Shown here: positions 2,859 to 53,701 of the stretch, piece by piece
How positions within the stretch are numbered: position 1 is the first letter of the stretch
Layout of the letters: each line of letters opens with the position of its first letter
Assembly: GCF_027484545.1 (NCBI RefSeq)
Contig: NZ_JAIXST010000194.1
Coordinates: 1 to 58,385, forward strand
Direction: 5' to 3'
DNA from: Runella sp.
Lineage (GTDB): Bacteria > Bacteroidota > Bacteroidia > Cytophagales > Spirosomataceae
Length of the DNA stretch: 58,385 nt
The notes under the pieces: generated by a model
What the model was told of the DNA's origin: nothing
The model's input: the letters and a program-made list of their open reading frames with translations, nothing else
Database searches by the model: none
Made by a program: the position numbers and the translations under genes

Positions 2859-5800
2859 TTAAAATTTAACGTTCAAATTAAAGCCCACACTGCGCGTAGT
2901 AGGCAAGCCTGTTGATTCCATACCCACGAGGTTGTCTGACGAGTAGCCAAATGATTCAGGGTCGATATTGTCCACCCATTTCTTGAGCATCAACACATTG
3001 TTGGCTACCAGACTCAGTTTGGCGGACTTAACAGGGAAGTTTTTGGGTAAAAGCTTTGTAATGTCATACCCTGCCGTAATTTGGCGCAATTTCCAATAGC
3101 CCCCATCATAGATGATAGGTTCTATCAAGGCTTGCGAGCGTACTACCGACCAATAATCCTGCACGGGCGCTTTCACAGCATTCACTTCTCCTTTTTCGTT
3201 TACGCCTACCCCCAATACGCCACCTTCGCGGCCTACCAATGTCATTTTGTTTAATCCATGACGCACTGCGTTGAAGTTAGTACCGGAAAGCATCATATTT
3301 CCCAGTTTGAAATCAATCAAAAACGATAAGTTGATACCTTTGTAATTGAAGGAGTTATTGATGCCTCCCACCCATTTTGGTAAAGCACTGCCGAAGGAAA
3401 TCAAATCGGGCGTGCGAAGCGGAAGGCCATTCGCACCAAAAATCATTTGCCCTTGTTCATTTCTTCTAAATCCAAAACCATAAATTTGCCCCATTTCCTG
3501 ACCTACTATCTGGCGCAATTCTCCGTTGAAGACGTGTGTGCCAACGGTAATACGCTCACCGGGAGTGTCTGTCAAAAGGCTCAACACTTTGGTCTTGTTA
3601 TAAGAAGCATTGAAGGTCAAATCCCACTGAAAATCGGATGATTTGATAGGTACTAAACCCAGCAATGCCTCCGCACCGTTGTTTTGGCTACGGCCGCTGT
3701 TTATCAGGGTACTTGTAAAACCGGAAGCATCAGATATTTGTGCCGAAACGATTTGATCTTGGGTAAGTTTCTGATAAATGGCGGCATCTAATGTAACGCG
3801 GTTTTTAAATAACTTCAACTCTAAACCAATTTCTTTTTCTGAAATACGCATCGGGCGTAGGTTGGCGTTGGGTACGGTATTCCCCGATGAGCCGCCCACC
3901 GGTTGCCCGCCAAATAAATTGGCGTTGATACCATAAAAGAGCGACTGTGAGTAAGGGCTTACGTCGGTATCACTACCCACCTCGGCATAGGCAGCGCGAA
4001 GTTTACCGAAAGATAGCCAATTGGGCGTGTTTTCAAATGCCTGAGAAAACACATAACTTGCCGAAACAGAGGGATACAAAATGCTGCGGTTGGCAGGGGC
4101 CAGCGTGGAAAACCAGTCGTTGCGGGCAGTAACGTTTACAAACAAATAATCTTTGAAAGAAAATTCTGCCGAGCCATACAACGAATTGACCGCTCTTTCC
4201 GAAAGTCCGTACTGGGGATCTTTCAAGCGGCCATTCATTACGGTATAAAGCCCACGCACTACAAAATCCTGTACTTGAACTGAGTTTAGATCTGAACGAC
4301 GATATAATTGATTGCCACCCACATTGACATCAAGGCCGAAGTTGTCAAAGGTTTTTGTGGCTGCTACCAGAAAATCAAGGTTGGTTTCTCTAAATCTCCG
4401 CGACTCTTGGGTGTAAATACCGTTCACAAAACCAACGGGTGCTGCCGCAAGTGAAGCTTGGCCTGTAGGAAAATTGTTATAATCCTGGTCACGCGACCAG
4501 TAATCTTGCCCTACGCGCCCCTGTATATATAGCCAGGGAGTCATGTTGTATTTGACTGAGATATTGCCAAAAAGGCGGTCACGGCGAATATTCTGAAACT
4601 GCTCCGATAGCGTAAAGTAAGGATTGGTTCGGTTCATGAACCGTGAATAGATAAATTCATTACCTGCAGCATTAAATTTCTTGGCTTCCAATAAATCCAA
4701 CGGCATGGAATTAGCCATGTTGGCAATAGAAGTTGGAATAGAGTTATCTTGGTTGGCAATGTTTGGCGGATTTTTGTTGTATTCCTTAGAGTAATTAATG
4801 TTGCCCGCAAAACTTATTTTCTTTGACAAATCATACGCAAATCCAAAATTGATGGTCTTACGGTTGAAGCTATTATTGGGTACAATTCCTTTACTGTCCA
4901 TGTTAGAAATTGAAAGATTCAAACCGCCTTTGTCTGAATTGGTAGCCAAAGAAACCGTATTGGTAAAGTTGGAGCCATTGCGGTAGAATTTTCTGATGCG
5001 GTTGTAAACAGGCTCATACGGTACTGTGACGCCATCAAAAAGTATATGGGTCATGCCGGGCTGAAATTTCTCCCCAAACGACCATTGACCCGAAGTGGGG
5101 TTGGGGGTAGTGGGGCGAACACCGTTCTCACCTTGACCGTATTCGTATTGATAATTAGTGAAGTCAAGCGGGGTTTCGTTGGTGTAGTTGGTGTTGTAGG
5201 TAACGCCAATGCCCTTGCTGTCGCCTTTAGATTTGGTTGTGATCATGATTACGCCATCTTTAGCCCGAGAGCCGTACAGGGCGGCCGCCGTTGCCCCTTT
5301 CAAGACCGTCATGCTTTCGATATCGTCGGGATTGATAGAACTGAGACCATCGCCACCGTCAGAGGTATTGCCGCTGCCGCGTACTCCGATAGAGTTGTCG
5401 GATGCCGCGTTGCCGGGGTTAGTACCAAAGTTTGTATTGTCAATCGGTACACCGTTTACCACAATGAGCGGGTTGTTTTGCCCCGAAATAGAAGACTGCC
5501 CCCGAATCCTGATTTTGGAAGTACCTGCCGGTCCTGTACCCAGACCGGAAATATTTACGCCCGCAATTTTCCCTTGGAGGGTATTCATGAAGTTAGGTGA
5601 TCGGTTTTCAGTAAGCGCATTCGCGTTGATGGTCGTAGTGGCGTATCCCAGTTTTTTGGACTCTTTTTTGATACCGAGAGCAGTAACTACTACTTCCTGC
5701 AATGCTTCGGCGCTTTCGGCGAGTGAAACATCAATTTTGGTCTGATTTCCAATAGAAATCTCTTTAGGGCTATAACCGATGAAACTGAAAACCAAAGTAG

Positions 5801-41957: not shown

Positions 41958-42855
41958 ATGGGACGTAAGAAAAAACATATTGAGTTAAGCGAAAGCGAGC
42001 GAATCACCTTACCAGAAGAGTCAAAGCATCACCCTAAATCTGAGTTTTGTTAAAAATATCAAGGCTTATTATTAAATAATTCAGGCATGGATTATGATAA
42101 AATAACACAGCATTTAGAGGTCAATAAAAACACAGTTTGCAACTGGGTTAAAGTTTGGCAAAAGCAAGTTATTGCTGGTTTGGCTCGAAAAAATGGACAA
42201 GGGCGGAGACAAATTTTAAGTGTCGATAATAAAAAACACACGGAGGTTTTAGATAGAGCTGTCGAAAATCATTATCAAAATATCAAAGCAATTCAAGCTG
42301 AATTGGTAAAAGAATTGGCACTGCCGATGAGTTCTGATAGAGTCAAAAGGTTTTTAAAAAAATAATTATTCCTACCGACGTGTTCGCTACTGTACCCACA
42401 AAGCGCAAGATAAAATAGACTATGCCGACAAGCATGAGAAATGGAAACTATGACTAACTCTTTCAATATTAGGGTACATAGAACTATATTTTGCTGACGA
42501 ATCGGGCTGTACAACGAAACCGCATCGGCGGTCTGACTTACAGTCCATATGCTTGGCAAAAAAAGGTGAAATACAGAGGCTTTTACTAAAAGAAACAATA
42601 GTAGGCTGAACGTTTTAGGCATAATGAGTCTCTCGTGTCATCTAACGGTTTATCACAGTGAGCAAAGCCTTGATGGTGAATTTATTAAAAACTCGTTGAG
42701 CGATTTTTGCAAAAGAGAGCATAAAAAGCCCAGAGTAATTGTAATGGATAACGGACCAATTCATCATGCGCAAATTGTTAAAGATGAGTTTGAAGAATGG
42801 CAAAGCCAAGAAGTGTCTATTTTCTTTTTACCCACTTACAGTCCTCTTTTTGATG
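41958..42855 (+). mobile_element. Decayed IS630-family transposase
   Basis: Broken transposase gene beginning at ATG 41958 (MGRKKKHIELSESERI). Recognisable parts are an N-terminal helix-turn-helix (about 42087-42200, KITQHLEVNKNTVCNWVKVW), and the catalytic DDE region VIVMDNGPIHHA and FFLPTYSP at about 42741-42850. Stops and frameshifts interrupt it near 42052, 42363 and through 42380-42620. The third acidic residue is missing because the gene is cut off near 42855 by unrelated sequence. The terminal repeats are not evident. It cannot be active. Confidence 0.8.
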
Positions 42856-43005
42856 GTGTACTTCGGCACACGTGGCCATGTAGCTGGTAAATGCTTCTCT
42901 CATCGAAAAAAGAGGTTTTCCGCCTTCAAGCATCCAACGGTATTCGCCGTCGTGTCTCAGCAGGCGATATTCGGTACGGTAGCCTACATGGTGAACGTGA
43001 AGGGA
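42856..43005 (-). pseudogene. PAS-domain fragment
   Basis: On the minus strand an uninterrupted 50-codon stretch encodes GYRTEYRLLRHDGEYRWML followed by EGGKPLF, the classic end of a PAS fold (strand with R-x-DG-x-YRW). It has no start and is bounded by the IS630 scrap on one side and the integrase scrap on the other, so it is a piece of a lost sensor kinase or diguanylate-type gene. Confidence 0.6.
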
Positions 43006-43018
43006 CTACAAACCCGCG

Positions 43019-43342
43019 ACGTTAGGAAAGCAGGTTAGTACGCTCAAAACGTTTCTTCGTGAAGCAACGGAGGAAGGTATCAATACCAATTTGAAATTTC
43101 AGAGCAAGGCGTTTAAAACGGTTGAGGATGAATCAGACAGCATCTCTCTAACAGAGGAAGAATTGGCCGCAATGTATGCGCTCAACTTGTCAGATAATCC
43201 ACGTTTGGATAAAGTGCGCGATTTGTTTTTGATTGGGGCAAATACAGGTTTACGATTTTCAGACTTCACGACCATTAAACCGCACAACCTCAAAAAAGTA
43301 ATTGATGAATATAATCTTGAAATCATACAGCCCTTACGGTGA
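43019..43342 (+). pseudogene. Tyrosine recombinase fragment
   Basis: An open frame of 107 codons without a proper start. It encodes the end of a phage_int_SAM-like domain (GKQVSTLKTFLREATEEGIN, SLTEEELAAMYALNLSDNP) and the first catalytic box with its arginine (GANTGLRFSDFTTIK). The HxxR and tyrosine boxes are absent, so this is only the middle of an integrase. It joins the PAS fragment directly at about 43018. Confidence 0.7.
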
Positions 43343-43880: not shown

Positions 43881-45440
43881 ATGTCCATAGACCACAAAAA
43901 ACAGCTTGAACAACAGCTTTGGAACATCGCTAACACCCTACGGGGAAAAATGAACGCGGATGAATTTAGAGATTATATCCTTGGATTTATTTTTTATAAG
44001 TACCTATCCGAGCGGATGAACCTCTTTGCTAATGAAATCTTACAGGAAGACGGACTAACGTATAATATCATAGACGAAACCACCGAAGAAGGACAGCAAT
44101 ACCTGGAAGCCATCAAAGAAGAAGCTTTAGAACAATTGGGCTTTTTTCTGAAACCCAACGAACTATTTCACGAAATAGCCGAACGGGGTAAGGCCGAAAC
44201 CAATAACTTTATCTTGGAAGACTTAGCCAATATCCTCACCAATATTGAGCAAAGTACAATGGGCTCGGATAGCGAAGACGATTTTAATAAACTCTTTGAA
44301 GACCTTGATTTGACTTCTACCAAATTAGGCCGTACCGAAGCCGCCAAAAACGAAATCATTACAAAGGTACTTTCTCACTTAGATACGATTGACTTTGAAT
44401 TACAAAACACCGAGGCCGATGTATTGGGCGATGCGTACGAGTATCTGATTGGACAGTTTGCGAGCGGAGCGGGCAAGAAAGCAGGGGAATTTTACACCCC
44501 TCAACAGGTTTCGACCATTTTGGCAAAAATAGTAACGACGGGCAAAACCAAGATAAAATCAGCGTATGACCCTACTTGCGGCTCAGGCTCTTTACTGCTT
44601 CGTTTGCAGAAAGAAGTAGAAGTAGCCAATTTTTACGGGCAAGAACTCAACCGCACCACCTACAATTTAGCGCGCATGAACATGATAATGCACGGGGTAC
44701 ATTACAAAAAGTTTGACATTCGCCAAGACGATACGCTCGAACACCCGCAGCACATAGACCAACGTTTTGAAGCCATTGTAGCCAATCCCCCGTTTTCGGC
44801 TATTTGGTCGGCAAGCCCGTTGTTTATGTCCGACGACCGTTTTAGCCAATACGGTAGGCTTGCCCCCGGTTCTAAAGCTGATTTTGCGTTTGTGCAGCAC
44901 ATGATTCATCATTTGGCCGAAAACGGCACCATGGCCGTAGTAGTGCCTCACGGGGTACTGTTTAGAGGCGGGGCAGAAGGACACATACGCCAATACCTGA
45001 TTGAAGACCGTAACTATTTGGATGCGGTTATCGGTTTACCTGCCAATATCTTTTACGGTACGTCTATTCCTACCTGTATGTTGGTGCTGAAAAAATGCCG
45101 CGAAAATCCCGACAACGTACTGTTTATTGACGGTAGCCAACACTTTGAGAAATCAAAAGCCCAAAACTACCTACGGGACAGCGACGTTGAGAAAATAGTA
45201 AGCACTTACCGCAACCGCACCCAAGAACCAAAATACAGCCATAAAGCAACGCTGGACGATATACGCGCCAACGAGTACAATCTGAATATACCGCGCTACG
45301 TAGATACGTTTGAGGCAGAAGGCACCATTGATATAAACACCCTTGCCGCCCAACTGAAAAGTTTAGATTTGGAAATGGCCCAAACGGATCAAACCATTGC
45401 CGATTTTTGTAAAGAATTGGGCATTGGAACCCCGTTTTGA
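43881..45440 (+). CDS. hsdM: Type I restriction-modification system methyltransferase subunit
   Basis: N6-adenine methyltransferase subunit, 519 residues. The HsdM N-terminal domain (about 8-160; WNIANTLRGKMNADEFRDYI) precedes the catalytic domain with FYTPQQV near 205, SAM-binding D230-PTCGSGS and N302-P-P-F305. Length is normal and the gene is intact. It is followed not by hsdS but by DUF1016 genes; hsdS lies 2.5 kb further on. The last 57 bp of this gene region are repeated at 46913-46969. Confidence 0.95.
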   Translation: MSIDHKKQLEQQLWNIANTLRGKMNADEFRDYILGFIFYKYLSERMNLFANEILQEDGLTYNIIDETTEEGQQYLEAIKEEALEQLGFFLKPNELFHEIAERGKAETNNFILEDLANILTNIEQSTMGSDSEDDFNKLFEDLDLTSTKLGRTEAAKNEIITKVLSHLDTIDFELQNTEADVLGDAYEYLIGQFASGAGKKAGEFYTPQQVSTILAKIVTTGKTKIKSAYDPTCGSGSLLLRLQKEVEVANFYGQELNRTTYNLARMNMIMHGVHYKKFDIRQDDTLEHPQHIDQRFEAIVANPPFSAIWSASPLFMSDDRFSQYGRLAPGSKADFAFVQHMIHHLAENGTMAVVVPHGVLFRGGAEGHIRQYLIEDRNYLDAVIGLPANIFYGTSIPTCMLVLKKCRENPDNVLFIDGSQHFEKSKAQNYLRDSDVEKIVSTYRNRTQEPKYSHKATLDDIRANEYNLNIPRYVDTFEAEGTIDINTLAAQLKSLDLEMAQTDQTIADFCKELGIGTPF

Positions 45441-45461
45441 AATAAACCCCGATTTTAAAAC

Positions 45462-45860
45462 ATGCAAATACTGTCGGACATAAAAAACATACTCCACCAA
45501 GCAAGGCAAAAGGCGTATCAGAGTATCAATTTGGCAATGGTGCAAGCCTATTGGCTCATCGGCAAGCGAATTGTGGAAGAAGACCAACAAGGCGAAGCAC
45601 GTGCCGTTTATGGAAAAGCACTTTTAAAAAACCTTTCGGCTCAATTACAAAATGAATTTGGTAAGGGTTTTTCTGAAAGAAACTTGGAACAAATGAGGGC
45701 GTTTTATTTAAACTACTCAATTTCGCAGACAGCGTCTGCGAAATCTCAAATTGTAGTTGGTAATACCCCCAATTTTCAATTGAGTTGGTCGCATTACTTG
45801 ATGCTCATTGCCATCAAAGATCCCAACGAAAGGGCATTTTATGAAAATTTACCGTTCTAA
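45462..45860 (+). CDS. DUF1016 N-terminal domain protein, truncated
   Basis: A 132-residue protein matching the N-terminal helical domain of DUF1016 (YhcG-like) proteins: AYWLIGKRIVEEDQQGEARA, YGKALLKNLSAQLQNEFGKG and FSERNLEQMRAFY. It ends after SHYLMLIAIKDPNERAFYE, where normal members continue for about 200 residues with a PD-(D/E)xK nuclease domain. It is therefore either a solitary binding domain or a truncated gene. It is followed 3 bp later by a second DUF1016 gene of a different subtype. Confidence 0.75.
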   Translation: MQILSDIKNILHQARQKAYQSINLAMVQAYWLIGKRIVEEDQQGEARAVYGKALLKNLSAQLQNEFGKGFSERNLEQMRAFYLNYSISQTASAKSQIVVGNTPNFQLSWSHYLMLIAIKDPNERAFYENLPF

Positions 45861-45863
45861 ATC

Positions 45864-46889
45864 ATGGAATTAACACGCTATAATTCTTTACTCAATGATA
45901 TAAAAATCAGGGTAAAAAACGCCCAAATCAAGGCAACACTTTCTGTAAATGCCGAAATGATTTTGATGTATTGGGACATTGGGATAATGATTCTCAAACG
46001 GCAACAAGAAAAAGGTTGGTCGGCAGGTATAATTCCGAAATTGGCTACTGACCTCAAAAACGAACTCCCCGAGCAAAAAGGGTTTTCCGAACGAAACTTA
46101 GGATATATGTTATGATTCGCCAAAGAATATTCAATTTTGCAACAGCCTGTTGCAAAATTGAATTATAAAAATCTTTTGCTTGCGATTCCGTGGGGCCACA
46201 ATATTTTGTTGATGGAAAAAATTAAAGAAGTAGAAAAAAGATTTTGGTATATCGAGCATATCATTGCCGGCGGTTGGAGTAGAGCCGTTTTGAGCAGTAT
46301 GATAAAATCAAAACTACTTGAAAGACAAAAATTATCTGTTAGCAACTTTGACTCCTATTTACCAAATCCACAATCTGAATTAGCAAAAGAAACCCTTAAA
46401 GACCCGTATATCTTTGACTTCCTGACGCTTGCCGAGCCTTTTGCGGAACGTGAATTGGAAATCGAATTAGTGAAACATATTGAAAAATTCTTGCTTGAAC
46501 TCGGTACTGGGTTTGCCTTTGTGGGAAGACAGTATCATTTGAATGTGGGCAACCAAGATTTTTATATTGACCTTCTGTTTTATCACCTAAAAATGAGGTG
46601 CTTTATTGTGATTGACCTAAAAAAAGGCAATTTCAAACCCGAATATGCCGGTAAAATGAATTTTTATTGCTCCGTAGTTGATGATACGCTAAAACACCCA
46701 ACCGACCAACACACAATAGGGCTAATACTTTGCGAAAACAGCAACAAGATAATTGCTGAATATGCCTTACGAGATACCAACAAACCCATTGGAGTGTCTG
46801 AATATGAATTGACGAGGGCATTACCCGAAAATCTAAAATCAAGCCTACCGAGTATCGAAGACATTGAAACCGAATTATCAAACAACTAA
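45864..46889 (+). pseudogene. DUF1016 family nuclease interrupted by one TGA
   Basis: One continuous frame of 341 codons with a single stop (TGA at 46113-46115). The first part (MELTRYNSLLNDIKIRV to FSERNLGYML) is the N-terminal domain; after the stop the frame resumes as FAKEYSILQQPV and runs to the end with the PD-(D/E)xK core, FYIDLLFYHLKMRCFIVIDLK. The expected residue at the stop is probably Arg or Trp, so a one-base change (for example CGA to TGA) would explain it. Translation could restart at 46137. DUF1016 proteins are often found with type I R-M genes; their role is unsettled. Confidence 0.85.
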
Positions 46890-46969
46890 AACCATGACCA
46901 CACAAATACCAAGATAAAACCATTGCCGATTTTTGTAAAGAATTGGGCATTGAAACCCCGTTTTGAAAT
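46886..46969 (+). repeat. Chimeric scar: hsdS start joined to hsdM end
   Basis: Positions 46886-46912 are identical to 47955-47981 (27 bp, including the hsdS start codon and its first codons). Positions 46913-46969 match 45387-45443 (57 bp covering the end of hsdM, two mismatches). The scar separates the DUF1016 cargo from the zeta cargo, and the preceding cargo gene's TAA sits at the same distance from the ATG as at the real hsdS. Confidence 0.9.
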
Positions 46970-47002
46970 GAGTTACTCGTATCTTTATAAAAACAAAAGA
47001 CG

Positions 47003-47227
47003 ATGCTAAACGAACAGGAATTAGATTATCTGGAACAGCAAATTCCGATTTTGGCCGAAACGGCTACCAAGCAAGCCTATTGGCAAACGCTCGCCTCGGG
47101 CGATAAAGTGATGATTGCCGAAGATGGAAAACTCATCGAAGTGTCGCCCGATGGAAGTCGAAAAATTATCAAAGAAATTGAAAAACCAATGAAGGTAACA
47201 CAACGGTTTTATAAAATTGTACGATAA
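47003..47227 (+). CDS. Small putative antitoxin partner of the zeta-like kinase
   Basis: A 74-residue protein, largely helical at the start (EQELDYLEQQIPILAETATK) with a beta-like middle (SGDKVMIAEDGKLIEVSPDG) and a basic end. Its stop codon overlaps the start of the zeta-like gene by one base, so translation is coupled. No family recognised; the antitoxin role is inferred from the arrangement only. Confidence 0.6.
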   Translation: MLNEQELDYLEQQIPILAETATKQAYWQTLASGDKVMIAEDGKLIEVSPDGSRKIIKEIEKPMKVTQRFYKIVR

Positions 47228-47958
47228 TGGAAGTACCAAGACTTAGAATGTTTGCGGGACCCAACGGCTCGGGTAAAAGCACCATTAAATCGGTTGTTTC
47301 ATCAAAATTACTGGGGCATTATCTGAATCCCGATGAGATAGAAAAAGAAATAAAAGACAGGGATTACCTTGATATTAGAGGCTACAATATTCAAACCAAC
47401 GAACGGGAGATAAGGGCTTTCTTTGACAAACACCCACTGATTGAGAAAACGGAACTGGGCGATTTTACCTACGAAATCAAGTATATTCAATCCGAATTTA
47501 TTGATTTCAGCGATGTAGGCATTGATTCGTACATGAGTGCCATACTGACCGATTTTTTGAGGCATAAATACTTAGAAACCCACCAATCGTTTACTTTTGA
47601 AACCGTGATGTCTTCGCCCGACAAAGTTGGAATTCTGAAAAAAGCCCAACAATTGGGCTATAAAACCTACCTGTATTTTGTGGCAACCGAAGACCCTGCC
47701 ATTAATGTACTCCGAATAAGCCACCGGGTAAAAATGGGCGGGCATCCTGTGCCGACTGACAAAGTAATTGCGAGGTATTACCGCTCACTTGATTTACTTT
47801 TTGAGGCAATAAAATACACCAACAGAGCCTATATTTTTGATAACTCAGGCGATGCCAAAACTTGGATTGCCGAAATAACCAACGGCACAGACATTTCACT
47901 ACAAGTAAATGAAGCACCTATTTGGTTCAGAAAATATGTATTAGAAAAATTAACCTAA
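47227..47958 (+). CDS. Zeta toxin-like P-loop kinase
   Basis: A 243-residue P-loop protein with Walker A GPNGSGKST at 11-19 at the very N-terminus, ESVMSS-like middle (QSFTFETVMSSPDKVGIL) and the region VLRISHRVKMGGHPVPTDKV typical of zeta-like AAA kinases that phosphorylate UDP-N-acetylglucosamine or act on nucleotides. Toxic activity is not demonstrated. It is located between the hsdM-end scar and hsdS, with stop TAA 4 bp before the hsdS start. Confidence 0.78.
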   Translation: MEVPRLRMFAGPNGSGKSTIKSVVSSKLLGHYLNPDEIEKEIKDRDYLDIRGYNIQTNEREIRAFFDKHPLIEKTELGDFTYEIKYIQSEFIDFSDVGIDSYMSAILTDFLRHKYLETHQSFTFETVMSSPDKVGILKKAQQLGYKTYLYFVATEDPAINVLRISHRVKMGGHPVPTDKVIARYYRSLDLLFEAIKYTNRAYIFDNSGDAKTWIAEITNGTDISLQVNEAPIWFRKYVLEKLT

Positions 47959-47962
47959 AACC

Positions 47963-49174
47963 ATGACCACACAAATACCAAAATTGCGCTTCCCTGAATT
48001 TGAAGGGGAATGGGAGGAAAAAGGATTAGGCGAACTTTTAGAGTTTAAAAACGGAATTAATGCAAGTAAAGAGCAATATGGTAAGGGGATAAAGTTTATC
48101 AATGTTTTAGACATTCTTAATAACGAGTATATAACACACGAAAAAATTATAGGCAGTGTAGATGTTGACGAAAAAACGTTAGCAAAATACCCTGTCAACT
48201 ATGGGGATATACTTTTTCAAAGAAGTTCGGAAACAAGAGAAGAAGTAGGTACAGCTTGTGTATATCTTGACGAAGTAAACACAGCTACCTTTGGCGGTTT
48301 TGTCATAAGGGGAAAGAAAATAGGTGAATACGAACCACGCTTTCTTAATAAATTACTGAAAACAGATTCTGCACGAGATGTAATAACATCAAAATCAGGA
48401 GGGAGTACGCGGTATAATGTCGGTCAAGAGACTTTATCATCAGTAAAATTGAGATTTCCATCCCTCCCCGAACAAACCAAAGTAGCCAACTTTCTCACCG
48501 CGATAGATACCAAAATCCAACAACTCACCCAAAAGAAAGCCCTACTGGAAGAATACAAAAAAGGCGTAATGCAGCAGCTTTTAAGCCAAAAGATACGATT
48601 TAAAGATGAGAATGGAGCGGATTATCCTGATTGGGAAGAGAAGAAGCTGGGGGAGATAGCGATGTTTTTTTCAGGTGGAACTCCTTTAACATCCAAAAAA
48701 GAGTTTTTTAATGGCGAAATTCCATTTATACGTTCAGGTGAGATACATTCTGAATCAACAGAGCAATTTATTACCGAATTAGGTTTAAAAAATTCTTCTG
48801 CAAAAATGGTAAAAGTAGGGGATATACTTTATGCTTTGTATGGTGCTACCAGTGGTGAGGTTGGAATTTCTAAAATTAATGGAGCAATAAACCAAGCTAT
48901 ATTATGTATTAGAAGTGTCAATAATCATTTTTATATATCATCCTTTTTAAGTCACCAAAAGGAAAATATTACTAAAACATATTTGCAAGGCGGGCAAGGG
49001 AATTTATCTGCTGAAATTATTAAATCGCTATTGATACCTCTACCATCTCTCCCCGAACAAACCAAAATAGCCAACTTCCTCACTGCCATTGATACCAAAA
49101 TCGAAACCGTAGCGAAGCAGATAGGCCAAACGCAATCCTATAAAAAAGGCTTATTACAACAGTTGTTTGTGTAA
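47963..49174 (+). CDS. hsdS: Type I restriction-modification system specificity subunit
   Basis: DNA-recognition subunit, 403 residues. Two target-recognition domains (about 15-160 and 220-350) are each followed by a conserved helical repeat beginning SLPEQTKVANFLTAIDTKIQ and SLPEQTKIANFLTAIDTKIE, which set the spacing of the bipartite target. Ends LLQQLFV, normal. Intact. The first 27 bp of its start region are duplicated upstream at 46886-46912. Confidence 0.95.
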   Translation: MTTQIPKLRFPEFEGEWEEKGLGELLEFKNGINASKEQYGKGIKFINVLDILNNEYITHEKIIGSVDVDEKTLAKYPVNYGDILFQRSSETREEVGTACVYLDEVNTATFGGFVIRGKKIGEYEPRFLNKLLKTDSARDVITSKSGGSTRYNVGQETLSSVKLRFPSLPEQTKVANFLTAIDTKIQQLTQKKALLEEYKKGVMQQLLSQKIRFKDENGADYPDWEEKKLGEIAMFFSGGTPLTSKKEFFNGEIPFIRSGEIHSESTEQFITELGLKNSSAKMVKVGDILYALYGATSGEVGISKINGAINQAILCIRSVNNHFYISSFLSHQKENITKTYLQGGQGNLSAEIIKSLLIPLPSLPEQTKIANFLTAIDTKIETVAKQIGQTQSYKKGLLQQLFV

Positions 49175-49248: not shown

Positions 49249-49404
49249 TTATTTTATCGCTATTTTGGGTAATCCAATCTTTTTTAGCACTTCGTTGGCT
49301 TTTGCTAATTTTTCGGGAAACAAGTTTTTCCCTTTGTACTTTTCTAAAGACTTGTCAATCACTACAATTGGCGTTTTTCGTTTGTTTAGCTCCTCGATTG
49401 TCAT
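49249..49404 (-). CDS. Small conserved-looking protein, copy 1
   Basis: A 51-residue ORF antisense to the R-M operon (MTIEELNKRKTPIVVIDKSL at the start, then LFPEKLAKANEVLKKIGLP). It resembles copy 2 at 49497-49649 along its whole length, with conserved pattern of IPIVV-DK-LE-GK-LFPEKLAKANE-L-K-GLPK. Such conservation between two copies argues for a real coding sequence. No family recognised. Confidence 0.55.
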   Translation of the reverse strand: MTIEELNKRKTPIVVIDKSLEKYKGKNLFPEKLAKANEVLKKIGLPKIAIK

Positions 49405-49453: not shown

Positions 49454-49489
49454 CCTACGTAGCGATTAGCGATGAGGCGGCACTATTGG
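49454..49489 (+). pseudogene. Scrap of the hsdR 5' region
   Basis: This 36-bp segment matches 50835-50870 of hsdR at 33 positions and encodes YVAISDEAALL, residues 25-35 of HsdR. It sits between the two small antisense ORFs. Confidence 0.8.
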
Positions 49490-49496
49490 TATCGTT

Positions 49497-49649
49497 TTAC
49501 TTTTGCGTTTTTGGGAGTCCTGCTTTCGCTAATATTTCATTTGCTTTTGCCAACTTCTCCGGAAATAAAGTCTTACCTCTAAATTGTTCTAACTTTTTGT
49601 CAAAAACAATAATAGGAATTTTTGAGTTATTTAATTTTTCTACTGTCAT
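49497..49649 (-). CDS. Small conserved-looking protein, copy 2
   Basis: A 50-residue ORF (MTVEKLNNSKIPIIVFDKKL, then LFPEKLAKANEILAKAGLPK). The ATG at 49649 is chosen by alignment with copy 1; an in-frame TTG at 49733 would extend it into the neighbouring repeat element. Antisense to hsdS and hsdR. Function unknown. Confidence 0.55.
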   Translation of the reverse strand: MTVEKLNNSKIPIIVFDKKLEQFRGKTLFPEKLAKANEILAKAGLPKTQK

Positions 49650-49743
49650 AATAGGCAAGTTTATTGTTTCTTGGTAGTAGGATTTACGCAAAACCCAAAG
49701 GGTTGGCATGATGATAGCCAAAAAATGTCCCAAATGCGATAAA

Positions 49744-49890
49744 ATCCCGAATCGGACTGCCGAAGCAGGGATGACACCCTTTCAGGGTTCAATAGGCCAC
49801 AAAAATACTTTTATCTCTATAATAATGGTATCCCTGCTTCGGCAGTCCGATGCTTCGGCAGTCCGATGCTTCGGCAGTCCGATACGGGAT
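49744..49890. repeat. Inverted-repeat element with 16-bp tandem copies
   Basis: A 29-bp left arm (49744-49772) reappears as its complement at 49830-49890, but the right arm contains three tandem copies of the 16-bp unit GCTTCGGCAGTCCGAT (49836-49851, 49852-49867, 49868-49883) in place of one. The centre (49773-49829) is AT-rich with an internal CCCTTTCAGGG palindrome. It looks like a small non-autonomous or REP-type repeat whose right arm has expanded. Confidence 0.8.
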
Positions 49891-49975: not shown

Positions 49976-50016
49976 TGGCGTTAAACAAAGAACATTAAAT
50001 CGGATCACCGAAGCGA

Positions 50017-50359
50017 ATGAAATATTTTGAGACGAGGTTTATGGAAGAAGCAAACGAGTTTATAGCAGAACTTGACCCAAAGACCATCAAAAAAATATTT
50101 TACAATATTGACCTTGCTGAACAGACGAATGACCCAAAGTTGTTCAAGAAACTGCAAAATGACATTTGGGAATTTCGGACAAAATTTGCAGGACTTCAAA
50201 TTAGGTTGCTTGCATTTTGGGACAAGTCAGACAACTAAGGAAACGTTAGTAATTGCTACCCACGGCTTCATTAAAAAAGTCGATAAAGTGCCAGCAAATG
50301 AAATTGACCGTGCAGTAAGACTAAAAGACAAATATTTCAACAACAAACCCAAAAAGTAA
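50017..50359 (+). pseudogene. HigB/RelE-like (Gp49-type) toxin, frameshifted
   Basis: The first frame (50017-50238) encodes a normal start, FIAELDPKTIKKIFYNIDLA and IWEFRTKFAGLQIRLLAFWD, then stops at 50236-50238. The remainder, KETLVIATHGFIKKVDKVPA and the C-terminal helix, continues in another frame to 50359. A one-base insertion near 50220-50238 explains this. The full protein would be about 113 residues, normal for the family. The downstream antitoxin gene is intact. Confidence 0.85.
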
Positions 50360-50691: not shown

Positions 50692-50764
50692 CAGAAAAGA
50701 AAGCCGAACGCATGAGAAGGGAAATAGGTTAGATCGGAAAAGCGAACCTTTATGGAAATAGAAA

Positions 50765-53701
50765 ATGAGTACACAGTCGGAGCAACTACTGGAAGATAAC
50801 CTTATCAAGCAACTGACGACGGATTTGGACTATACCTATGTAGCTATCAGCGATGAGGCGGCACTATTGGCCAACCTCAAAACGCAGTTGGAGAAGCACA
50901 ATAACGTTAGGCTTACCGATAGGGAATTTGGACAGGTACTCAACCACCTCAACAAAGGCAACATCTTTGAACGGGCTAAAATACTCCGTGATAAGATGCA
51001 ACTCACACGAGAGAACGGGCAGAGCGTTTACATTGAGTTTTTGAACATGGATTTTTGGTGTCAAAACCAATACCAAGTAACCCGCCAAATCAAAAACGAA
51101 GGCTCCTATAAAAACCGCTATGATGTTACGCTTCTTATCAATGGGTTGCCATTGGTGCAGATAGAACTTAAAAAAAGAGGGCTGGAACTCAAAGAAGCCT
51201 TTAATCAAATCAACCGTTATCAGCGGCATTCTTATTGGGCTTCTTATGGATTGTTTCAGTATGTTCAAATCTTTGTGATTAGTAACGGGGTAAATACCAA
51301 ATACTTTGCCAATAACCCAAAAGATGGTTTTAAACAAACCTTCTATTGGTCGGATGTTCAAAACAAGCCTATCCGACAACTGGAAGCCTTTTCAGCCGCG
51401 TTTTTGGAAGCCTGCCACCTTTCCAAAATGCTCACCCGTTACACAGTACAACATGAGACGTGGCAAATCCTGATGGTCATGCGCTCGTATCAGTACTACG
51501 CTACGGAGGCAATTATAGAGCGCGTGAAGAACACCCGCAGCGGCGGACCGCATAAGAACGGGTATATATGGCATACCACAGGCTCAGGAAAAACGCTTAC
51601 ATCCTTTAAAACAAGTCAAATATTAGCCACCTTGCCGCAGGTGCATAAGGTGGTGTTTGTGGTGGACAGGAAGGATTTAGACTACCAAACCCAAAAAGAA
51701 TTTGACAGTTTTTCTAAGGGCAGTGTGGATGCGACGGAATATACGGGCGATTTGGTCAAGAAATTTACGGACGATACCAAAATCATTGTAACGACCATTC
51801 AGAAGCTTTCCAACGCTATCAGTAAGCAGCACCACCTCAAACACATGGACGCGCTGAAAGATAAGCGGATTGTCTTTATTTTTGACGAGTGCCACCGCAG
51901 TCAGTTTGGGGATACCCACGACGATATAAAGAAGTATTTCAGCAACGCCCAACTTTTCGGCTTTACAGGAACTCCGATTTTTGTAGATAACTCCGTCAAA
52001 AACGAACGGGGCAAACGAACCACCAAAGACCTCTTTGATGAGTGCCTTCATAAGTACGTCATTACCGACGCCATCCGCGACGAAAACGTGTTACGCTTTA
52101 CGGTAGAATACGTAGGCAAGTACCGCAGGAAAGACGATACCCGAACGGAAATAGACATAGAGGTAGAAGCCATTGACACCAAAGAGTTGATGGAATCGCC
52201 GCAGCGGCTCGAAAAGATTGTAGATTACATCATCGCCAACCACGAAAAGAAGACGCATAACAAAGAGTTTACCGCGATGTTTTGCGTCAATAGCGTAGAT
52301 ACGCTGATAAAGTACTACGAACTCTTTAAAGCCAAAAAGGAAGAAGGGAAACATCATTTAAGGGTCGTTACTGTCTTTTCCTACACCGCCAACGAAGACG
52401 ACAAAAACGCCAACGGGATGCTACCCGATGAGGATTTTGGCGTTGAGAATGAACCGTTACGTATGGCAGCAGAACCCAAAGTGGCGTATAGAAACGAAAA
52501 ACTCATTACCGAAAACAAACATACCCGCGAAAAGTTGGACGAGTTTATTGGTGATTACAATAAGATGTACAACACCAAATACTCAACCAAAGACAGCCAA
52601 AATTTTTATAACTACTACAAAGACATTGCCAAACGGATAAAGGAGCGGGAAAAAGAAGGAAGCAAAGAAAGCGACCGCGTGGACATTTTGTTGGTCGTAA
52701 ATATGTTTTTAACGGGGTTTGATGCCAAAAAGTTAAATACCCTGTACGTGGATAAGAACCTGAAATACCACGGCTTGATTCAGGCGTTTTCGAGAACGAA
52801 CCGAATTTTGAACGAAAAGAAATCGCAGGGCAATATCGTTTGTTTCCGTAACCTGAAAAACGCCACGGATGATGCCATTACGCTTTTTTCCAACAAAGAG
52901 GCCAAGGAAGAAATCATAATGAAGCCGTATGAAGACTACGTAACCAAGTTTAACAAAGCCTACGAAAAGCTACTGCAAATAACACCCACCGTAGATAGTG
53001 TAGATGAGTTGCCAAGTGAGGAAGAAGAACTGGAATTTGTCAAAGCGTTTCGGGAATTGATACGGGTTAAAAATATTATGTCCACTTTTTCAGACTTCCA
53101 ATTTGAAGACCTGCAAATGGACGAACAGGATTTTGAGGACTTCAAAAGCAAGTACTTAGACCTGCATGACAAAGTAAAAAGCAATACGCAGAAAGAAGCC
53201 GTATCTATTCTAAATGACGTTGATTTTGAATTAGAATTGATTCAAAGGGATGAAATAAACGTAGCCTATATCCTTCGTTTATTGGCCCGGCTCAAAGAGG
53301 TATCAGCAACCGAACAAGCCAAGCAGCGCAAAGAAATCATGGAACTACTTTCGGGTGAGGTACAGCTACGGAGCAAACGGGAATTGATAGAGAAATTTAT
53401 CAATGAGAATTTACCCATCATTGAAGATGCCGACGATGTACAAGGCGAGTTTGAGGAATATTGGGAAGCCGAACGTCAAAAAGGGTTTGAAGCGATTTGG
53501 AAGGAAGAAAAGCTAAACCCTGACAAACTGCATACTATCGTTAGTGACTACCTGTTTTCGGGTCATAAACCACTAAAGAACGATGTTATCAAAATCTTAG
53601 AAGTGCTACCGAAAACCCTACAACGAAAAACCATAGGCGAAAGAATCATTGAGAAAATTGTCGGCTATGTAGATACTTTCTTTAATGGGATGGAGGGGTA
53701 G
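50765..53701 (+). CDS. hsdR: Type I restriction endonuclease subunit
   Basis: Translocating nuclease subunit, 978 residues, full length. N-terminal nuclease domain with D120 and E134-L-K136 of the PD-(D/E)xK site; SF2 motor with Walker A TTGSGKT at about 271-277, DECH box at 374-377 and FGFTGTP (motif III). The C-terminal helical part (about 690-978) docks to HsdM. It completes the R-M system whose other subunits lie 1.6-6.9 kb upstream, so all three proteins are intact and the system may be functional. Start ATG at 50765 with no Shine-Dalgarno. Confidence 0.95.
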   Translation: MSTQSEQLLEDNLIKQLTTDLDYTYVAISDEAALLANLKTQLEKHNNVRLTDREFGQVLNHLNKGNIFERAKILRDKMQLTRENGQSVYIEFLNMDFWCQNQYQVTRQIKNEGSYKNRYDVTLLINGLPLVQIELKKRGLELKEAFNQINRYQRHSYWASYGLFQYVQIFVISNGVNTKYFANNPKDGFKQTFYWSDVQNKPIRQLEAFSAAFLEACHLSKMLTRYTVQHETWQILMVMRSYQYYATEAIIERVKNTRSGGPHKNGYIWHTTGSGKTLTSFKTSQILATLPQVHKVVFVVDRKDLDYQTQKEFDSFSKGSVDATEYTGDLVKKFTDDTKIIVTTIQKLSNAISKQHHLKHMDALKDKRIVFIFDECHRSQFGDTHDDIKKYFSNAQLFGFTGTPIFVDNSVKNERGKRTTKDLFDECLHKYVITDAIRDENVLRFTVEYVGKYRRKDDTRTEIDIEVEAIDTKELMESPQRLEKIVDYIIANHEKKTHNKEFTAMFCVNSVDTLIKYYELFKAKKEEGKHHLRVVTVFSYTANEDDKNANGMLPDEDFGVENEPLRMAAEPKVAYRNEKLITENKHTREKLDEFIGDYNKMYNTKYSTKDSQNFYNYYKDIAKRIKEREKEGSKESDRVDILLVVNMFLTGFDAKKLNTLYVDKNLKYHGLIQAFSRTNRILNEKKSQGNIVCFRNLKNATDDAITLFSNKEAKEEIIMKPYEDYVTKFNKAYEKLLQITPTVDSVDELPSEEEELEFVKAFRELIRVKNIMSTFSDFQFEDLQMDEQDFEDFKSKYLDLHDKVKSNTQKEAVSILNDVDFELELIQRDEINVAYILRLLARLKEVSATEQAKQRKEIMELLSGEVQLRSKRELIEKFINENLPIIEDADDVQGEFEEYWEAERQKGFEAIWKEEKLNPDKLHTIVSDYLFSGHKPLKNDVIKILEVLPKTLQRKTIGERIIEKIVGYVDTFFNGMEG

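Follow-up and report, generated by a model that had tools for sequence, protein, structure and literature searches.

Gene content of the hsd locus

The window, by which we mean the whole 58,385-nucleotide stretch of DNA that was analyzed, is part of a Runella sp. draft genome of 354 contigs and carries a type I restriction-modification (R-M) operon in which hsdM, hsdS, and hsdR all lie on the plus strand with intact frames. Among the best 80 of 486 related stretches, the two closest relatives of its HsdM are both from Runella. The interval between hsdM and hsdS is occupied by a truncated DUF1016 gene, a second DUF1016/YhcG-type gene, a 74-aa gene, and a zeta-like gene, interspersed with partial copies of the bordering hsd genes. 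The features, by window position, are as follows.

43881-45440, plus strand: hsdM, 519 aa, intact (N6_Mtase, 1.5e-108; HsdM_N, 1.8e-19)
45387-45443, plus strand: end of hsdM, source copy of the right half of the scar (55/57 identical to 46913-46969)
45462-45860, plus strand: cargo layer 1, DUF1016 gene with the N-terminal domain only (DUF1016_N only, 5e-39)
45851-45863, plus strand: 13-bp hsdM-end relic, 11/13 identical to the hsdM end before the same gene in L159
45864-46889, plus strand: cargo layer 2, DUF1016/YhcG-type PDDEXK nuclease gene with one in-frame stop (DUF1016_N and YhcG_C, 1.8e-67; 86.5% aa identity to L159)
46886-46915, plus strand: left half of the scar, copy of the hsdS start (27/27 to 46912 and 29/30 to 46915 against 47955-47984; colinear with L159)
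46913-46969, plus strand: right half of the scar, copy of the hsdM end (colinear with L060)
47003-47227, plus strand: cargo layer 3, 74-aa gene, the zeta partner; no family match; same pair in L060, L005, L006, L007, and L009
47227-47958, plus strand: cargo layer 3, zeta-like P-loop gene, 243 aa (Zeta_toxin, 5.2e-9, a modest match)
47963-49174, plus strand: hsdS, 403 aa, intact (Methylase_S, 5e-38, two stretches)
49454-49489, plus strand: relic from the start region of hsdR, in the hsdS-hsdR interval (33/36 identical to 50835-50870, E 5e-10)
50732-50761, plus strand: possible C-terminal relic of an Abi_2-type gene before hsdR (weak, by eye)
50765-53701, plus strand: hsdR, 978 aa, intact (HSDR_N, SWI2_SNF2, EcoR124_C)

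The cargo thus sits between the genes of a multi-gene defense system, as embedded defense genes do. Both DUF1016 genes match PDC-S02, and both are broken in the window; the frames of the zeta layer are open. Compared with epsilon-zeta toxin-antitoxin systems, the pair in layer 3 combines a Zeta_toxin match with a small partner that has no match in Pfam, PADLOC, or NCBIfam and that is, judging from its position, a possible antitoxin. Among defense-family models, the zeta-like gene has only a weak match, to mad3 (5.6e-4), and it has no sequence relative in the PDB at E 0.01.

Several further features were seen, mostly by eye. Just upstream of the operon (42087-43342) lie broken frames that are apparently transposase- and integrase-like. 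Two similar small frames on the minus strand (about 49250-49400 and 49497-49733) flank the hsdR-start relic, and the latter has no Pfam or NCBIfam family match. Palindromic units between hsdS and hsdR (49744-49890 and 49999-50030) resemble a short, GATCGGATCGCCGAAGCGACAG-bearing repeat that is inserted in the 74-aa gene of L060 (about 3320-3460). The possible Abi_2-type relic was read against the ends of Abi_2-type genes in the same place in L094, L120, and L127.

A chimeric scar between cargo blocks

A first-pass annotation of this DNA had described, between two cargo blocks, 27 bp identical to the hsdS start and followed directly by 57 bp, with two mismatches, from the hsdM end. Both halves hold up: 46886-46912 is identical to 47955-47981, the hsdM-end half matches its source at 55 of 57 positions, and the chimeric scar, which separates the second DUF1016 gene from the 74-aa gene, is real. 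Searched within the hsdM-hsdS interval, the hsdM end returns an E-value of 6e-23 and the coding part of the hsdS start one of 8e-7. The two halves overlap by only 2 bp (AT, 46914-46915). The same annotation held that both cargo blocks stand at the same spacing before the hsdS start and begin after the same hsdM end, and this agrees with their common ending at the hsdS start, ...CTAAAACCATG, and the common sequence after which they begin, ...TTTTGAAAT. Its division of the interval into a DUF1016 cargo and a zeta-pair cargo needs amendment: the DUF1016 block consists of two genes, and the zeta name comes from a modest match (Pfam, 5e-9). Within the hsdS-start half of the scar, by eye, a 7-codon frame (46894-46917) ends inside the scar.

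Beyond what had been described, the hsdS-hsdR interval contains the hsdR-start relic, and the DUF1016 block contains a further joint (about 45847-45863) at which the truncated DUF1016 gene meets a 13-bp hsdM end directly before the second DUF1016 gene. The alignment of layer 1 with L175, a full-length relative, stops at 45846, where the gene breaks off; the 13-bp relic is short and hence less certain than the main scar. In L159, an hsdM end lies directly 5' of the ATG of the DUF1016 gene, and this arrangement, the 13-bp copy in the window, and the break in layer 1 together give a three-layer order: hsdM, truncated DUF1016 / hsdM end, DUF1016, hsdS start / hsdM end, small gene, zeta, hsdS.

Relatives that carry a single cargo

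Relatives with only one of the two cargoes, which the first-pass annotation had suggested looking for, exist for each. The zeta cargo without DUF1016 is found in Runella sp. HJF.20 (L060, which appears to be the 5408-base contig G007:C192), where hsdM is followed by the small gene and zeta, with no DUF1016 gene between, colinear with the right half of the scar and with the same hsdM-end-to-cargo junction as in the window. The hsdM of L060 is interrupted (codons 52-70 unmatched, 94% aa identity over 71-519), its 74-aa gene is disrupted by the inserted repeat, and its zeta protein is 93.5% identical over 217 residues. Because zeta is followed there by an IS-like gene and the contig end, hsdS is missing and the 3' end of the L060 cargo is unreadable. 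Conversely, L159 (G137), from another genus of the same family, carries the second DUF1016 gene without the zeta pair, arranged as hsdM end, DUF1016, and hsdS start; its hsdM is a remnant (residues 1-20 and about 469-519). It matches window positions 45851-46915 in a single 1067-bp BLAST segment at 85% DNA identity that runs through the left half of the scar. The form without cargo, with hsdM and hsdS adjacent, is seen in R. zeae DSM 19591 (L059).

The joint itself was searched for with a 125-base query across the scar in 200 genomes of the family, our own included, with at most four candidate places scored per genome. Any match at E 0.001 was found in 13 of the 200, and the joint was spanned in our own genome only. 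G137 matches the left part (query positions 3-55, with 57-107 matched at a separate place), and G007 matches positions 53-125, the right part. Since no other genome of this sample spans the joint, we reject the scar as an ancestral, conserved feature; junction sequence is nonetheless kept around different cargo in close relatives. The single-cargo relatives and the restriction of the joint to one genome support the earlier proposal that two hsdM-cargo-hsdS arrangements recombined.

Divergence between the window and L060 differs by gene: dS is 0.84 for hsdM (bootstrap 0.64-1.11) but 0.23 (0.14-0.35) for zeta and 0.25 for the 74-aa gene. The low zeta dS relative to that of hsdM shows that cargo 2 has moved between operons of different hsdM lineages. 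Of 54 positions compared in the hsdM end of the scar, 52 are the same as in the resident hsdM, 47 as in either L060 or L059, and 46 as in L159. The small-zeta pair also occurs in four stretches with no hsd match in their 2-4 kb (L005, L006, L007, and L009) and in L024, a 16-kb stretch around one of them. A gene beginning MKYPRKLSSGANN follows the pair in L024 (8642-9097) and forms a separate cargo behind an hsdM-end relic in L223 (3074-3592), so it may belong to the same cargo pool. For layer 1, we found no operon in which its gene alone lies between hsdM and hsdS; its three closest relatives outside the window (L175-L177) have no hsd matches in their 8-12 kb, and a DUF1016 gene behind hsdM in G019 (L223, L254) shows 46-50% identity. 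Parts of window positions 43881-49174 are matched by 371 plasmid records, none of which, among the matches listed, covers 80% in one place. Among viral contigs there was one zeta relative, at 50% (L255), with no hsd match in its 8.7 kb.

Cargo at the hsd junctions of related operons

The first-pass annotation had also regarded the hsdM-hsdS junction as a loading site for interchangeable defense genes. Our first sample comprised the best 80 of 486 related stretches from an HsdM scan of genome contigs, each up to 17.6 kb. A full hsdS was present in 65, and in 20 of these the hsdM-hsdS junction measured at least 250 bp, with a frame of at least 50 aa in 19 of the 20; gene starts were set mechanically, so such gap lengths are approximate. 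On the other side of hsdS, 45 of the 57 stretches with both hsdS and an hsdR start have at least 250 bp between them, and both junctions are long in 16. Most core and cargo genes are only a few bases apart.

Frames behind hsdM, including some from loci with no hsdS in the stretch, were clustered, and ten representatives were scanned. The clusters comprised RhuM (9 members), GxxExxY (5), Bro-N (5), RAYT-like (3, below NCBIfam's cut-off), KilA-N (2), GIY-YIG (2), DUF1016 (2, by similarity to those in the window), and a second Bro-N cluster (2), which we presume would go by the name DinD. Singletons included ORF6N, Fic, and MtlR-like genes, with three more outside the scan. Several correspond to PDC families, specifically PDC-S05 (RhuM and ORF6N), PDC-S13 (Bro-N), and PDC-S22 (KilA-N). 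Loci with near-identical hsdM genes (DNA identity) bear different or no cargo (L074/L080, 96.5%; L104/L113, 96.1%; L120/L132, 92.2%; L105/L122, 88.8%). Ten representatives from the hsdS-hsdR side yielded Abi_2, PDDEXK_4, HTH, Fic, SecB-like, HTH-M78, DUF4268, DUF3800, and AAA_21 genes, with one having no match. The loading-site proposal is hence supported by the share of long junctions and the many gene families found, and its restriction to defense genes only partly so, as RAYT-like and GIY-YIG genes are also loaded.

By eye, AT-rich stretches with inverted ends of the TTGTC(N)GAA and TTC(N)GACAA types flank GxxExxY genes as well as some empty junctions (L066, 9573-10112; L072, L100, L109, L121, and L232), perhaps a small mobile unit that targets hsd junctions. 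Also by eye, L079 (10904-13026; AAA_21 in the scan) and L130 (10952-12982) have, between hsdS and hsdR, an AAA-type gene and then a smaller one, an arrangement that we take to be reminiscent of rloA/rloB pairs.

Relics of facing gene edges

In all intervals of at least 250 bp, we searched for 110-bp edges and interior tiles of both bordering genes, and the main count took same-strand matches at E<1e-6 with the window excluded. The first sample prompted the test, which was then repeated on a second, of 67 stretches from class and order searches, 8 of which were dropped for an hsdM more than 98.5% identical to an earlier one, leaving 59, 52 with hsdS. Intervals below 250 bp and loci without a full hsdS (15/80 and 7/59) were likewise dropped. 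Edges facing the junction matched in 7/130 cases in the first sample and 10/108 in the second, compared with 0/124 and 0/107 for edges facing away and 2/1631 and 1/1436 for interiors. Pooled, 17/238 facing edges stand against 0/231 away-facing edges (Fisher p 1e-5) and 3/3067 interiors (p 2e-17), and the relics fall in 15 of 119 junctions. By these counts, edge relics evidently recur at both operon junctions.

We restricted the main count to the same strand once the second sample had turned out to contain inverted hsdS copies, namely minus-strand copies in four loci (L187, L188, L226, and L227). With both strands at E<1e-6, the second sample gives 10/108 facing, 4/107 away, and 8/1436 interior matches, and all four of the away and seven of the eight interior matches are these minus-strand copies. 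At a looser E<1e-3 on both strands, the counts are 13/134, 0/128, and 13/1679 in the first sample with the window, and 15/108, 6/107, and 19/1436 in the second. The hsdS-hsdR intervals of the four loci contain minus-strand copies of hsdS parts, as in invertible hsdS loci. The three interior matches of the main count lie in the AT-rich repeat flanking GxxExxY genes (L066, L100) or form a tandem repeat (L221). L101 and L193 were counted despite resembling tandem duplications of a gene edge, and relics below the threshold (L068, L072, L116, L223, and L232) were left uncounted.

The clearest mirror of the window is L127, in which hsdS is followed by cargo, an hsdR start fused to an hsdS end, further cargo, and hsdR; the two relic halves share GAACAA. 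L183 bears an hsdS-start relic at one junction and relics of the hsdS 3' region and the hsdR start at the other, and L198 has an hsdM-end relic directly 5' of hsdS. In L223, hsdM and DUF1016 are followed by an exact 17-bp hsdM end, other cargo, and hsdS, and L239 repeats sequence upstream of hsdR as well. The relic is flanked on either side by frames of at least 80 aa in 10 of the 15 affected junctions; in the other five (L079, L095, L101, L193, and L198), cargo is on one side only. By eye, several edge relics can be read as short frames that soon reach a stop, just ahead of the gene that follows (L095, about 3844-3883; L183, 2428-2511; L184, about 4339-4370), and such frames may keep translation coupled.

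Assembly of the junction and alternative explanations

We consider it likely that at least three layers of cargo are stacked in the junction and that they were added as related R-M operons recombined. Layers 2 and 3 have each stood alone behind an hsdM end, layer 2 has also stood before an hsdS start, and layer 1 presumably once stood alone behind an hsdM end as well. In the route that we propose, a resident hsdM–X–hsdS operon would meet a donor hsdM'–Y–hsdS', and a short-homology joint would connect a point just past X, a few codons into hsdS, to a point just before Y, in the last codons of hsdM'. The product would be hsdM–X–(S start/M' end)–Y–hsdS', and one homologous exchange in hsdS or downstream would complete the integration. 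In general form, the scar would join the start of the next gene to the end of the previous one, with one full hsdM and one full hsdS kept. Both core genes and both cargoes would survive, which would explain why relics come from junction-facing edges. That the DNA was imported, with homology at one end and an illegitimate joint at the other, is our inference, as are the order of the layers and selection for the cargo. The overlaps at the joints, 2 bp in the window and 6 bp in L127, represent the little homology that such a route would involve.

Several observations weigh against stacking by recombination between operons, namely the overlap of 2 bp only, the missing ancestor for layer 1, the unreadable 3' end of the L060 cargo, and the five junctions with cargo on one side of the relic. 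Further, no donor with a complete hsdS was found, so the second, homologous crossover is unlocated. The proximity of the scar's hsdM end to the resident hsdM also fits duplication within one lineage. If two hsdM-cargo-hsdS units arose by tandem duplication or came together by co-integration, loss of the DNA from the first hsdS start through to the second hsdM end would yield the same end product with no illegitimate import. This alternative, which draws further support from the tandem edge copies in L101, L193, and L239, strikes us as unlikely, given that none of the 80 first-sample stretches contains two hsdM genes and that the cargoes trace to operons of different genera.

The remaining explanations fare worse. 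That relics of whatever origin are kept as functional spacers, with short edge-made frames coupling translation from cargo to cargo, accords with the 7-codon frame in the scar, the similar short frames that start in L095, L183, and L184, and the close spacing of core and cargo genes; it seems quite improbable, as other relics are frameless gene ends and the scar is present in one genome only. The direct repeat of 27-30 bp that flanks a 1069-bp unit could in principle be a target-site duplication or att site of a mobile element or integron-like cassette. We reject this very improbable origin for cargo 2, as the window has neither a transposase nor a recombinase frame in its hsdM-hsdS interval, and the unit begins with an hsdM end, which in L060 also adjoins this cargo, behind a full-length hsdM region. 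Finally, an assembly artifact might be suspected in a 354-contig draft, yet the 30- and 57-bp repeats are shorter than ordinary reads and both halves of the scar are colinear with other genomes, while chance similarity is excluded by the E-values above; we give this possibility hardly any credence.

Relation to known systems and implications

Defense-type genes nested in type I operons, such as those in the window, are a known phenomenon, exemplified by the embedded genes behind the PADLOC PDC families. PDCs are described as found by guilt-by-embedding (PMC12988326), candidates from which also appear in PMC12255303, both papers citing a preprint. Going by these citing papers, that work concerns which genes are embedded, whereas we read the joints between layers and propose a joining route. 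Accessory genes between hsd genes, like the cargo here, include PrrC (PMC3874165, PMC3506569, PMC3710099), DarTG2 between hsdS and hsdR (PMC12255303), and rloA/rloB (PMC2928727), and Abi2-type genes have been called "embedded in R-M operons" (PMC3710099; see also the review PMC12707154). In the passages concerned, PrrC, DarTG2, and rloA/rloB appear as single functional partners, with no edge relics or layering described, in contrast to the layered cargo of the window. Invertible, domain-swapping hsdS loci share with the window recombination inside type I operons through repeated hsdS sequence (L187, L188, L226, and L227), but their inverted copies change specificity, while the window has direct partial copies of gene edges that flank cargo. 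Homology-facilitated illegitimate recombination, in which DNA is added through a homologous end and an illegitimate one, is a known process (PMC3240628); here, it is deduced from its product, with the homologous side unlocated. In the literature searched, which included no preprints and few subscription papers, we recognized no paper on gene-edge relics between cargo layers, and this is weak evidence of absence. To that extent, the layered edge scars and the joining route that they imply appear to be the new part.

The nesting and clustering of defense genes have mostly been argued from co-location statistics, whereas here, single joints can be read while one-cargo relatives persist. What the finding offers is a mechanism of joining that can be tested, a means of distinguishing layers, and a signature to look for in other defense operons, namely relics of gene edges that face the junction, the edges facing away serving as a control. 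Comparable relics in related bacteria point to a general process by which such operons accumulate additional, mostly defense-type genes. More tentatively, it is possible that type I junctions are recombinase-free docking sites, at which the hsd genes supply the homology to capture and stack cargo from related operons. If so, the operon would be a moving platform that assembles defense islands, and gene-edge relics would be a readable record of capture.
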